NCBI RefSeq assembly: GCF_025151215.1
Contig: NZ_CP102286.1
Location: 3,472,001-3,536,000 of the forward strand
DNA length: 64,000 nt
Reading direction: 5' to 3'
DNA from: Parabacteroides merdae ATCC 43184
GTDB lineage: Bacteria; Bacteroidota; Bacteroidia; Bacteroidales; Tannerellaceae
Numbering within the stretch: position 1 is the first letter of the stretch; each line of letters opens with the position of its first letter. This document shows positions 30,613 through 48,131 of the stretch, piece after piece. Position numbers and translations under genes: made by a program. A model generated the notes under the pieces. It did not search any database. It had not been told where the DNA came from and saw nothing but the letters and a program-made list of their open reading frames with translations.

Positions 30613-33450
30613 TTAGATTACGATGTTTACAATCTTTCCTGGAACAACGATAATCTTTTTCGGAGTCTTGCCTTCCATCCACTTAGCCGAATTTTCATGG
30701 GCAAGAGCGGCTTTCTCAATCTCTTCGCGAGGCATATCAGCTGGAAGTTCCATGCTGAAACGAGCTTTGCCGTTGAAGGAGATAGCGTAAGTAAGCGAGT
30801 TTTCTTTCAAGTATTCTTCGTTGTAGACAGGCCATTCGGCATCGCATACGGTAGTATTGTGACCGCAGGTATGCCATAATTCTTCAGCGGTATGAGGAGC
30901 GAACGGAGCAAGCAGAACGATTAACTGTTCCAGGATCGCCCGTTTGTTGCATTTCAGGCTGCTCAATTCGTTTACACAGATCATAAAGGCACTGATGGAA
31001 GTGTTGTACGAGAAATGTTCGATGTCGTATGTCACTTTCTTGATCAGTTTATGCAGTGATTTCAGTTCGTCGGCTGTCGGTTCCGCATCCGTAATCTGCA
31101 AGGTGTCCGTATTGCCGAAGAACAATCCCCAGAGCTTTTTCAGAAAGCGGTGTACACCGTCGATACCGTTCGTATCCCATGGTTTGGATTGTTCCAACGG
31201 GCCTAAGAACATTTCATACAGACGAAGTGTGTCAGCACCATATTTCTCGACAATCATATCCGGATTGACCACGTTGAACATGGATTTCGACATCTTTTCA
31301 ACAGCCCATCCGCAGATGTATTTTCCATCTTCCAATACGAATTCCGCGTCGTTATATTCCGGACGCCAGTTTTTGAAGGCTTCGATATCCAGTATATCGT
31401 TTGATACGATATTTACGTCTACATGGATAGGAGTGACTTCGTACTGGTCTTTCAGGTTCAGGGATACGAATTTGTTCGTGCCGTTGATACGGTATACGAA
31501 GTTGGAACGTCCTTGGATCATACCTTGGTTGATCAGTTTCTTGAACGGTTCCTCTTCACAAACGATACCTAAGTCAAACAGGAATTTATTCCAAAAACGG
31601 CTGTAGATCAGGTGTCCGGTAGCATGTTCGGTACCACCGATATACAGGTCTACGTTGCGCCAGTATTCATCTACGTCTTTAGCTACTAAAGCTTGGTCGT
31701 TGCGCGGGTCCATGTAACGCAGGTAATAGGCGGATGAACCGGCGAATCCCGGCATCGTGCAAAGTTCCAGCGGGAAGATAGTCTTGTTGTCTATTTTGGA
31801 AACTTCCGTGACTTCCTGTTTTACGGTGTCCCATGCCCATTTTACGGCGTGTCCCAGAGGCGGTTCACCTGTTTCGGTCGGCAGGAATTTATCTACTTCC
31901 GGCAATTCTAACGGTAATTTGTCTACCGGCAACATCTGAGGCATACCGTCTGCATCGTAATAGACAGGGAACGGTTCGCCCCAGTAACGCTGGCGGCTGA
32001 AGATAGCGTCGCGCAGACGGTAGTTCACCTTTACACGTCCTAACTTATGTTCTGCCACGTATTTTTTGGTGGCGGCGATTGCTTCTTTTACGGTCAGGCC
32101 GTTCAACGACAGGTCGCAATGAGGCGTTACGTCCGGTCTCGGTGAGTTGCAGACGATTCCTTCTTTCGCATCGAAACTTTCTTTGCTTACGTCGCAACCT
32201 TCGATCAGCGGGACAATCGGCAAGTTGAAATGTTTGGCAAATGCATAGTCGCGACTGTCGTGTGCCGGAACAGCCATGATGGCACCGGTTCCGTAACCGG
32301 CCAGTACATAGTCGCTGATCCAGACAGGCACGGCGTCGCCCGTGAACGGATTGATTGCGTATGAACCGCTGAATACACCGGTAACGGAACGATCAGCGAT
32401 ACGTTCGCGTTCTGTACGTTTTTTAGTACGGTCCAGATAAGCGTCGACTTCTTGTTTCTGCTCCGGAGTCGTCAATTGTGCGACCAGTTCGCTTTCGGGA
32501 GCCAAGACCATGAAAGTGACACCGAACATAGTGTCGGCACGGGTTGTAAAGATGGTAAATTCGAGGTCGCTGTCTTTTACTTTGAATTGGATTTCGGCAC
32601 CTTCGCTGCGGCCGATCCAGTTACGCTGTGTTTCTTTCAGCGAGTCTGTCCAGTCGATCGTCTCCAGTCCATCCAGAAGCCGTTGTGCATAGGCGGATAC
32701 GCGCAGGCACCACTGACGCATGATCTTTTGTTCCACCGGATAGCCACCACGTTCGGAAACGCCGTTCACCACTTCGTCGTTGGCCAGTACCGTACCCAAT
32801 GCGGCACACCAGTTTACCATCGTTTCGCCTCGATAAGCGATCCGGTAGTTCAACAGGATTTCCTGTTTTTCTTTATCATTTTTGGCTTTCCATTCGCCGG
32901 CAGTGAAATGCAATTCTTCGCTGCAAGCTACATTCAAACCTTCCGTTCCGGACTGTTCGAAAGCGGCAACCAGTTCGCTGATGGGACGTGCCTGCTTTTT
33001 ATCGTTGCAGTAATAGCTGTTGAACATCTGGATGAATGCCCATTGCGTCCATTTATAATATTCGGGATCGCAAGTACGGATCTCGCGGTTCCAGTCGTAA
33101 CTGAAACCTATTTTGTCCATCTGTTCCCGATAACGGGCGATGTTTTTCTTTGTCGTTACTTCAGGATGCTGTCCGGTTTGGATAGCATATTGTTCTGCCG
33201 GCAGTCCGTAGGCATCGTAGCCCATCGGATGCAAAACGTTGAAGCCTTGCAGGCGTTTGTAACGGGAATAAATATCAGAAGCGATATAACCGAGTGGGTG
33301 GCCTACATGTAGTCCTGCTCCTGATGGATAAGGGAACATGTCCAAAACGTAATACTTTGGTTTGTCGGCATTTTTTTCGACTTTATAAACCTTATTGGCA
33401 ATCCAGTATTCGTGCCACTTTTTCTCAATTTCTCTGAAATTGTACTCCAT
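30613..33450 (-). CDS. leuS: Leucyl-tRNA synthetase
   Basis: Class I synthetase of 945 residues that charges tRNA-Leu. The HIGH-type site is [17 protein letters not shown] near residue 40 and the KMSKS loop is [15 protein letters not shown] near residue 690. Between them lies the CP1 editing domain ([40 protein letters not shown] sequence), which clears mischarged amino acids. The C-terminal anticodon-binding region ends [14 protein letters not shown]. Full length and typical of bacteria. It heads the leuS-yitT-rdgB-porZ run. Confidence 0.98.
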
Positions 33451-33491
33451 GATCGTCTATCGTTTATTTTATCGTTTTCTATTTAAAGCCA

Positions 33492-33499
33492 CAAAGTTA
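33492..33499 (-). promoter_or_regulatory. -7 box of the leuS promoter
   Basis: TAACTTTG on the minus strand (33499-33492) matches the Bacteroidales consensus about 42 bp before the leuS ATG. The -33 element is not clear. Confidence 0.5.
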
Positions 33500-34049
33500 G
33501 TGAATTTTGTAATACATAAAGAGTTGAAGCGGCAAATTGCAAGGACGGGCAAAATAAAATTTCATTCTGGAGGTTGTGGATGTCAATCTGGAAATTACAA
33601 AATGCAAAATTTTGAAAAAGGGAAGAGTATTACAACCAATGCCGATAGAACCCTTAAAAGAAGTATGCGCCGTAATTTGTATCGTTGCAAATTACGGCGT
33701 GACGTGTTAATCGAGCTTTTGAAAAAAGTCGGGTTTATTCCTGAAAAACAATGGAAGTAAATACTCCGGGGCAGCAGTTGGAACTGTTTTAAAAAGCAAG
33801 AATCCTACTCAATGCAGGATTCTTGCCTTGAAACAACGTCTGTTTTTTATTTTTAATTTGAATTATAAATCATTGATTATGAATTGATAATAGCAATTGT
33901 GTTGTTTCTAATGGTTCAAATATACTAAAATGAAAGTAAATCACAACGCATGGCTTATTGTAGCCAGGGCAACCACACAAAATTCGGAAATCGTATGAAC
34001 TATATCAAAGAAAAAACAGAACCTTATCATATAAGTATTTCCCATTTCC
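33500..34049. other. Intergenic stretch with two perfect hairpins, no convincing gene
   Basis: CGCCGTAATTTG (33668-33679) and CAAATTACGGCG (33688-33699) form a perfect 12-bp stem with an 8-nt loop. GCAAGAATCCT (33796-33806) pairs with AGGATTCTTGC (33816-33826), a terminator-like hairpin. A 52-codon plus-strand frame from ATG 33602 to 33760 runs through the first hairpin; its basic residues resemble no family I know. The rest shows nothing recognisable. Confidence 0.5.
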
Positions 34050-34712
34050 TCTGTCACTGTGTCACTGATTCCTTTTTACCAATTGATATTCAACTTGTTT
34101 GATTAGTGATATATGCCCGTTTTCTCTATCACTACGGTATCACAACCCTATCACTGGCAACTTGGATGGGAAACAGGTATTCCGCTTATATATATATGTA
34201 TATTAGTATATTACAAATAAAACAAACAATAAACACTTGATTCCCATCCCTGCAAACCACTCGATTATTTTATGTAAAAACGGCTATAAAATAGGTGAAA
34301 CCGGGTAGTTTTTATTGTCCGGCACGGTACTTTAGTTGCCGGACACCCCCATGTTACCCCCTTTTACACCCGGATGTACCGGCTCCCTACACCCGGATGT
34401 AAAGGATGGCAACATGGGGGTGTTTACGGAATTATCTGCTTGTTTCTGCTAAAAAAAGAGAAGGCTTTTGTGGAATGAAGAACCGTATTTTGTCAATTTA
34501 ATATCTATTATATTCGTTTTTACATTTATTTATTCGATTATTTTATATGCTTTTTCAAAAGTAACAGAAGGTAATATGTTGGTTTCCAATCATATGATAA
34601 AAATGTCCTGTTTCAGGAGTGATAGAGGCAGTGATACAGGAAAACATCCTGTATCACTGCTATAACGCTTGAATATCAATATCTGAAACTTTTGTAGTGA
34701 TAGAGTGATAGA
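34050..34712. repeat. Large imperfect palindrome with mirrored AGTGATA/TATCACT sites
   Basis: Two inverted half-sites of about 300 bp centred near 34382. Matching pairs at constant symmetry are: 34050-34066 with 34696-34712 (14 of 17); ATTGATATTCAA at 34082-34093 with its complement at 34669-34680 (12 of 12); AGTGATA 34105 with TATCACT 34652; TATCACT 34127 with AGTGATA 34630; ATGTAAAAACG 34272-34282 with its complement 34515-34525; and ACACCCCCATGTT 34343-34355 with AACATGGGGGTGT 34411-34423. The core holds two direct copies of TACACCCGGATGTA (34365 and 34388). It is non-coding. See findings. Confidence 0.8.
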
Positions 34713-34773
34713 AGATTTGCAGAAAAACTGATTCTTCGTCACTTTCAGGGTAGTTCAAGCACATGATTGCTAG

Positions 34774-35352
34774 ACTGACCGCAGACCGGACAGCGGACTC
34801 CGTGATGCGTATCGGACAATGTTACATAATGGAACCAAGTCTGACCCTGTTACTCCTCCTTCTGGTGGTGATGGAGACGAAAACGTTACGATCTCTTTGG
34901 ATGCAACGACAAAAGCTCTTCCACGTCTCGAAGAATTCGTTTTGGAAGCAACTGTTTCTCCTTCCGGTAAAACAGTGACATGGAGCAGTAGCGATCCGAC
35001 GATCGCCAGCGTGACAGCCGATGGCAACAAGGTAACCGTAAAGGGGCTTAAAGTCGGAACAGCTACGATCACAGCTAAGATCGGTGACGTGACCGCTACT
35101 TGTGAAGTGACGGTAGACTTTGCAACCGGCCTTGAAGAAGCCCTTGCCAATACGGAAGTGTTTGGAAGAAAGGGAAATATTTATGTGAATCCGATTCAGT
35201 CGCTACAAGTGACCGTTGTGAACATGATCGGTAAGATCGTCTACAATGCACGTATCAGTAGCTATGCGCGAATACCGGTAACAAAAGGCATTTACATTGT
35301 GAAATTAACCAATGTCGGAAATACGAAAGTTATTAAGGTAAATGTATACTAA
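34774..35352 (+). pseudogene. Truncated Ig-like (BIG2) protein with T9SS-type C-terminal domain
   Basis: The open frame begins directly after a TAG at 34771 and has its first ATG at 34819. There is no signal peptide or promoter. The translated part contains a bacterial Ig-like group 2 domain (VTWSSSDPTIASVTADGNKV, VKGLKVGTATITAKIGDV) and then a sorting-type C-terminal domain (GNIYVNPIQSLQVTVVNMIG, and GIYIVKLTNVGNTKVIKVNV). A protein of this kind should be exported and much longer, so this looks like the 3' remnant of a surface protein whose 5' part has been lost, with the break next to the large palindrome. The alternative is a short gene with an unseen start. Confidence 0.65.
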
Positions 35353-47583: not shown

Positions 47584-48131
47584 GTCTTTGCTGTTTTATA
47601 TGTTTGTTTTATAATGCAAATATCGACCCATTGTGGCTTGCGGTAAATGGCAATTCTGCCGGATAACTTATCAATTTTCCCCGATCTGGTTATTTATAGG
47701 CAAAAGAAACCCCTATAAACAATTAAAGGCTGTCTCACGACAACCCCTAACCAAACTTTGTTAACCTTAAATCTAATACTATTATGAAAAAACCACAATA
47801 CAAAGATACGGGTTTGTCCGAACTTGTCAAGAGCCAAGATGCTAAATAGTGTTGTAAGAGGTATAAGAAAAATTAATTGCAGATGAATAAGCCTTTTATT
47901 GAAAATAAAATTATCTTTGTCTGGAAATATAAAGAAAAACGTAGAAGCGTTTCGTATTATTCTTTGTTAGGAATCTGGTAAATTCATTGTACAAAAAGAA
48001 TAATAGGCAAAAACGCTCGCGCTCCCATAGGGCGTGGGCTATTGCTTATTTGTTGTACAAGCTTACCAGAGCTCCTAACCGGATGAGACAATAGCTCCAC
48101 GCTTTTTTACCACAAATAGAAAGAATACGAT
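47584..48131. other. Intergenic region upstream of the first ECF sigma gene, with long inverted repeat
   Basis: An inverted repeat spans 47966-48079: GTTAGGA...CTGGTAA...TTGTAC on the left is mirrored by GTACAA...TTACCAG...TCCTAAC on the right, with a GC-rich inner hairpin near 48017-48040. A 21-codon ORF at 47784-47849 (starts MKKPQYKDTG) is probably not a gene. The segment GTAGAAGCGTTTC (47941-47953) is shared with the second sigma locus. Confidence 0.6.

Follow-up and report, generated by a model that had tools for sequence, protein, structure and literature searches.

A MITE with ISAs1-type ends in Parabacteroides merdae, and the primase-helicase units that share its mirrored repeat arrays

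The palindromic feature near the middle of the window (the whole stretch of P. merdae ATCC 43184 DNA analysed, 64,000 nucleotides) is one copy of an ISAs1-type miniature element (MITE) and lacks its right end, as judged from shared terminal repeats, target duplications, an ISAs1-family relative in a congener and an empty site for a second family with the same ends. As a MITE alone, the element is ordinary. Its interior, however, is not a shrunken transposase gene, as in other ISAs1-family MITEs, but a pair of mirrored repeat arrays around a GC-rich core, shared with units that encode an HU-family protein and a BT4734-family primase-helicase. We consider it somewhat better than an even bet that these repeats are iterons of a BT4734 initiator captured in the MITE, binding and origin activity both being putative. 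We found no published description of the arrays in the open-access (PMC) literature, which is weak evidence of absence since subscription papers and preprints lay outside that scope; a MITE built around mirrored primase-helicase-unit arrays is likewise a variant for which none was found in the literature searched.

A palindrome within an ISAs1-type MITE

The initial annotation described a palindrome of about 660 bp at 34050..34712. The palindrome is real: alignment of the left half with the reverse complement of the right gives a local score of 54, while 300 dinucleotide shuffles give a mean of 19.9 (sd 3.5) and a maximum of 42, so the inverted diagonal goes beyond chance. Folded as single-stranded DNA, the sequence has a z of -7.8 against 20 shuffles. 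The sites originally listed are all present, each exact or at most one base off: TCTGTCACTGTGTCACT lies at 34050, AGTGATA at 34105, 34618, 34630, 34696 and 34704, and TATCACT at 34127, 34149 and 34652, while the core holds ACACCCCCATGTT at 34343 paired with AACATGGGGGTGT at 34411, and TACACCCGGATGTA twice (34365 and 34388). Two points require revision. The interval was drawn too short, given a left terminal repeat that begins at 33965. The 22-bp steps, though present, are a subset of a longer fixed order, in which a doublet 8 bp apart is followed by an inverted repeat at about +53 to +56, a further repeat at +20 and usually another at +11. The features are, in window positions:

33965..34727, + strand: ISAs1-type MITE, type A, with its left end; alignment to the full copy L004 (811 bp) shows that ~70 bp at the right end are absent
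33965..33984, + strand: terminal inverted repeat on the left side; its sequence, CAGGGCAACCACACAAAATT, is a variant form of the family end
34051..34155, + strand: left array; doublet at 34051 and 34059, inverted repeat at 34105, then 34126, 34137 and 34148 (profile match G000:C1:3506040-3506155)
34082..34093, no strand: ATTGATATTCAA, between left doublet and inverted repeat; exact reverse complement at 34669-34680
34343..34423, no strand: GC-rich core; 36-bp arms 34343-34378 and 34388-34423, 83% complementary, with TACACCCGGATGTA in each
34618..34710, - strand: right array, mirroring the left; 34618, 34630, inverted repeat at 34652, doublet at 34696 and 34704
34669..34680, no strand: TTGAATATCAAT, mirror partner of 34082-34093

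The sequence also recurs, both in its own genome and in others. The own genome, a single contig of 4,377,447 bases, contains 20 loci that match the query 34040-34730, the window copy included, which we call type A; the other 19 are 84-97% identical to the query, and there are further pieces besides. Twelve of 58 other genomes match at E <= 0.01 (best 2.5e-7), and within the genus it is mostly the GC-rich core that matches. In five of the 20 type A copies (L013, L016, L018, L019 and L020) the middle of the core is inverted, as if it had flipped between its palindromic arms. One of the copies (L002, G000:C1:3469313-3469998) lies just beyond the window, 36 kb from the window copy, in inverted orientation and 97% identical to 34040-34730; recombination between the two could invert the intervening segment.

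The full type A copy L004 spans 811 bp between inverted CAGGGCAAC... ends, and comparison with it indicates that the window copy lost its right end after ~34727. A second family, type B (15 loci, counted on the larger matches), has the same ends and a different body, copies of both types terminating in CAGGGCAACCGCAYCAAAAT. Target duplications of the ISAs1 family are 8-10 bp long. Among the six copies with two ends, duplications are exact (9-10 bp) in three, namely TAAAAACGGG (type B), GTTGTTCAA (type A) and CAACTTCGT (type B), imperfect in two as judged by eye, and absent in one, the full copy L004, where nothing longer than 3 bp is duplicated. An empty site for the type B copy at C1:4132046-4132562 is present in P. 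massiliensis (L252), where CAACTTCGT occurs once, uninterrupted, while the sister genome G013 carries the copy. The type A copy L012 proved unsuitable for the same comparison: its right flank is kept in all eight genomes, and its left flank matches only a single 117-bp stretch, elsewhere in G013.

A relative is present in the congener G011, in the form of a 1.4 kb insertion sequence (L093). Its ends are of the same kind, its target duplication is TAGACCACA, and it encodes an ISAs1-family transposase that matches NF033564 at 4.4e-98. Some ISAs1 transposase match is found in six of 38 congeners. A protein search of the own genome gave no match to this transposase at E <= 1e-20, and a search for the 21-base end (up to 3 mismatches) led to 20 places; six of these end matches fall outside type A loci, five being type B elements and the sixth a lone end beside housekeeping-like genes. 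An autonomous partner in the same genome is not required of a relic family. In size (a full copy of 811 bp), copy number (20 loci) and absence of a transposase gene the family is as expected of a MITE, and no open reading frame longer than 65 aa lies inside the window copy.

The CAGGGCAACCGCAC... ends, the 9-10 bp duplications and the lack of an internal transposase are those of ISAs1-family elements. REP and BIME sequences are likewise dispersed, palindromic, non-coding and intergenic, but the present element is far longer, has a conserved order of multiple sites and carries insertion sequence ends. The BrickBuilt MITE of Porphyromonas gingivalis, in the sections of its description available (PMC4596501), is also multi-copy and intergenic, a member of the same order, with internal repeats and insertion sequence-like ends. 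By that same partial account, however, BrickBuilt has IS5-type ends and head-to-tail 23-nt repeats, whereas the element here has CAGGG ends and spaced, mirrored words of 7-8 bp, and it does not belong to BrickBuilt.

Repeat arrays and the HU/BT4734 units

Each mirrored half of the MITE interior is a compound repeat array. Scanning for the ordered words (doublet, inverted, single, single; up to 3 mismatches) gave 61 matches against none in one shuffled copy, though the 501,737 bases of own DNA covered had been chosen as holding relatives, so that 61 is not a density. Most of these arrays have spacings of 8, 52-56, 19-21 and then 10-13 or 20-22; a few matches, such as those at 656016, 2033036 and 4175727, depart from the plan. 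Single array-plus-core modules also exist. A sequence profile built from 37 arrays and run on 78 genomes matches 12 of them, comprising 10 of 38 in the same genus, two of eight from other genera of the family and none of 32 from other families, with at least 47 arrays in the own genome.

Between copies, divergence is 3-5 times lower in the repeat words than in the remainder of the element. For type A (26 BLAST pieces, whole-element query) divergence is 0.026 at word positions against 0.089 elsewhere, and for type B (14 pieces; first ~550 bp only) 0.036 against 0.166; no circular shift of the mask reached the observed contrast (0/810 and 0/757). An earlier version of this test, in which arrays had been picked by their words, was circular and was replaced by the whole-element BLAST copies. 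The contrast, seen in both families, bears on whether the arrays might be an inert passenger, copied long ago from a unit and with no present role. ISAs1-type ends and duplications would by themselves account for dispersal of such a plain MITE, but neither the slow divergence of the words nor the match of two MITE families to two unit dialects is expected of a passenger, and we consider this explanation improbable.

The initial annotation proposed a search for a linked VirE-type gene, which came close: the same arrays flank HU genes together with genes of VapE/BT4734 type. The own genome has eight BT4734-like genes. At two loci (L065, whose words are of type A, and L064, whose words are of type B) an HU-family gene and a BT4734 gene lie between mirrored arrays in a unit of ~3 kb, so that one type A and one type B unit parallel the two MITE families of this genome. 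Read from the left, the unit has an array and a GC-rich hairpin core, then the HU-family gene and the BT4734-family primase-helicase gene, and finally a second array on the right; ACACCCGG-like core words sit between the left array and the HU gene in both units. Nothing but the two genes lies between the arrays of L064 and L065; there is no integrase there, as would be found in a SaPI/PICI-like satellite. Upstream of another BT4734 gene (L066) are four direct repeats, ATCCTGTA..., 22 bp apart, which are iteron-like and of a different word.

Five Parabacteroides relatives found by protein (L122-L126) have a word array on both sides in four cases, L122 (P. gordonii) having the left only. With the profile, both arrays are found in seven of nine clade units, one array in L227 (again the P. 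gordonii unit), and one weak match in L229. Outside the genus, L237 (G067:C103:4078-6150) has a BT4734 gene with two in-frame TAG codons and both arrays kept, in a genome with 25 array matches. Prevotella units have other words, for example AATATCA, AACATCA and CCTTGCC, and in three Prevotella units examined a DUF6078 gene replaces HU while words shared between the flanks are kept, an indication that it is the BT4734 protein that reads them. In a test for words shared between flanks, 14 of 27 BT4734 units passed, with no more than two of 200 shuffles doing equally well, and the other 13 failed; L067 was left out because its coordinates were lacking, L069-L071 and L134 were not entered, and the 450 bp taken downstream do not reach the right array of L132, which lies at +554. 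Among eight unit loci examined, L064, L124 and L125 have their right neighbour in common, and they share the left gene with L123 as well, so some units are evidently old residents.

Arrays and units also tend to occur together: of the 13 genomes that have a clade unit 10 contain arrays, against two of the 65 that lack one, a comparison made with no control for phylogeny and with a clade-unit threshold (full-length match, E <= 1e-180) that was set after the list had been seen. The exceptions are G064, G015 and G025, which have a unit and no profile match, and G059 (six arrays) and G001 (one array), which have no clade unit at that threshold.

Possible roles of the arrays

Three domains are seen in the BT4734 protein: one of PrimPol type (for which another search gave a weaker match, under the cut-off), a VapE-like helicase domain and DUF3874. 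The protein also matches phage primase and helicase families. Its helicase part matches PDB 7pds (E = 4.8e-5), an entry named 'Similar to D. nodosus vapE', which we take to be a SaPI protein. Our literature search found no account of what BT4734-like genes do in Bacteroidales. Part of one survey (PMC5862659) lists BT4734-like proteins as an archaeo-eukaryotic primase family outside the named clades; the unit gene has such an N-terminal domain, but the word 'iteron' does not occur in the text of that survey as available. Initiator helicases of SaPI and SCCmec elements bind short iterons adjoining their genes (PMC7581432, in part), and for the satellite PLE the portion of PMC7145576 available describes iterons and RepA as interacting partners. 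These precedents, together with the primase and helicase domains, are the grounds for reading the arrays as iterons. Short repeats next to an initiator gene, as in an iteron origin, are present in L064, L065 and their relatives, while the MITE itself has no such gene nearby. The likeness to SaPI/SCCmec replicons extends to an initiator helicase gene beside short-repeat arrays; going by the available part of PMC7581432, the present system differs in having arrays mirrored on both sides of the unit, no integrase, and gene-less copies in dozens.

Under the captured-iteron reading that we favour, the MITE interior would be a gene-less version of the array-bracketed HU/BT4734 unit, and the repeats would be binding sites of the unit's BT4734 initiator. 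Once loaded on the arrays, this protein may unwind the DNA and prime it locally, much as SaPI-type Rep helicases do at origins. The MITE would then be an origin fragment that jumped using an ISAs1 transposase in trans, and it could still be bindable by the BT4734 protein; as a first guess, it might gain extra local replication or an increase in copies. Counting against capture of an origin, CAGGG-type ends are absent from both own units, L064 and L065. Two of the original suggestions can be placed here. An iteron-like origin of a lost element comes close, in that the same arrays flank the units, but it missed a multi-copy transposed element with ISAs1-type ends; fused inverted element ends would be apt only in the sense that both unit arrays are kept and the genes are gone.

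Mirrored pairs also exist apart from ISAs1 ends. We retrieved 17 gene-less pairs, 436-755 bp long, from P. gordonii, P. goldsteinii, G021, G013, G004 and G067, and inspection of 90 bp on each side by eye finds a CAGGG-type end in only two, both from G013, so ISAs1 is not needed for such pairs. This raises the possibility, which we regard as rather unlikely, that the arrays are themselves ends of a mobile element, serving as subterminal binding sites and moved by the HU/BT4734 unit, with gene-less pairs of ~0.4-0.8 kb as non-autonomous derivatives and ISAs1 ends added later in P. merdae and its sister. Consistent with this, seven BLAST pieces in G021 and G023 begin at the same query base, and the pair L181 is missing from its place in G018. 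However, four of those seven copies share sequence past the apparent edge, the L181 junction is not base-exact (G023 has at that place ~5.6 kb with SusC/SusD-like genes), and neither a target duplication nor a base-exact empty site was found for the gene-less pairs. Moreover, no nuclease or recombinase domain is among the Pfam matches of the two unit genes, and some pairs and units occupy the same place across species (pairs L175/L178, L180/L183 and L182/L185 each in two species), which fits old relics. A bolder form of the proposal, in our view similarly doubtful, is that the BT4734 units of Bacteroidales form a novel class of mobile element, bounded by mirrored iteron arrays, each unit having words of its own. 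Such a unit would move or multiply itself and would act likewise in trans on gene-less pairs and on single array-core modules (dozens per genome), two of the word dialects being matched by two MITE families in one genome.

It is very improbable, in contrast, that the element is an operator, terminator or structured transcript serving neighbouring genes. Its intergenic position and the consensus stem of 34 pairs formed by the core would suit such a role, and BrickBuilt MITEs hold promoters according to part of PMC4596501. However, promoter-like sites number three against 4.6 expected and terminator-like sites one against 0.8, both at chance level, and we reject a promoter or terminator role. 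The structured RNA offered in the initial annotation fares no better, in that the element contains no Rfam match and two-sided change is seen in only one of the 34 core pairs, although the core folds strongly.

As to a free-living form, scanning IMG/VR with two peptide patterns confirmed no relative, and every plasmid match (55 records) is below 60% identity. A 98.9% match in a phage collection is to an unverified linear faecal scaffold, to which we give no weight in this respect.

We regard the array-bracketed BT4734 units of Parabacteroides and Prevotella as a larger finding than the MITE. Mirrored arrays with unit-specific words provide a concrete, testable DNA target for BT4734-like genes, and numerous gene-less substrates are available naturally in the MITEs. 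Should the arrays be origins, an insertion sequence family has been spreading candidate sites of initiation across chromosomes; should they be the ends of an element, a helicase-primase element would be moving without a known nuclease.

Neighbouring features in the window

At the broken right end of the window copy another small repeat seems to abut the element: the sequence at 34728-34760, TTCTTCGTCACTTTC..., recurs beside copy L013. On the left, a 121-aa open reading frame (33395-33760) weakly resembles the beginning of Cas9, at a score under the cut-off (TIGR01865, 23.6 bits), and next to it lies a single 47-nt CRISPR-DR49 repeat (33901-33947, 74 bits); the region 33395-33947 looks like a decayed type II CRISPR-Cas locus. 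To the right, a 177-aa open reading frame (34819-35352) that matches Big_2 and DUF6383 and, at a score under the cut-off, a T9SS tail is apparently the end of a longer secreted protein. Farther along the window, at 47713-47796, there is a FopS-type sRNA (RF04319) scoring just above the gathering score.
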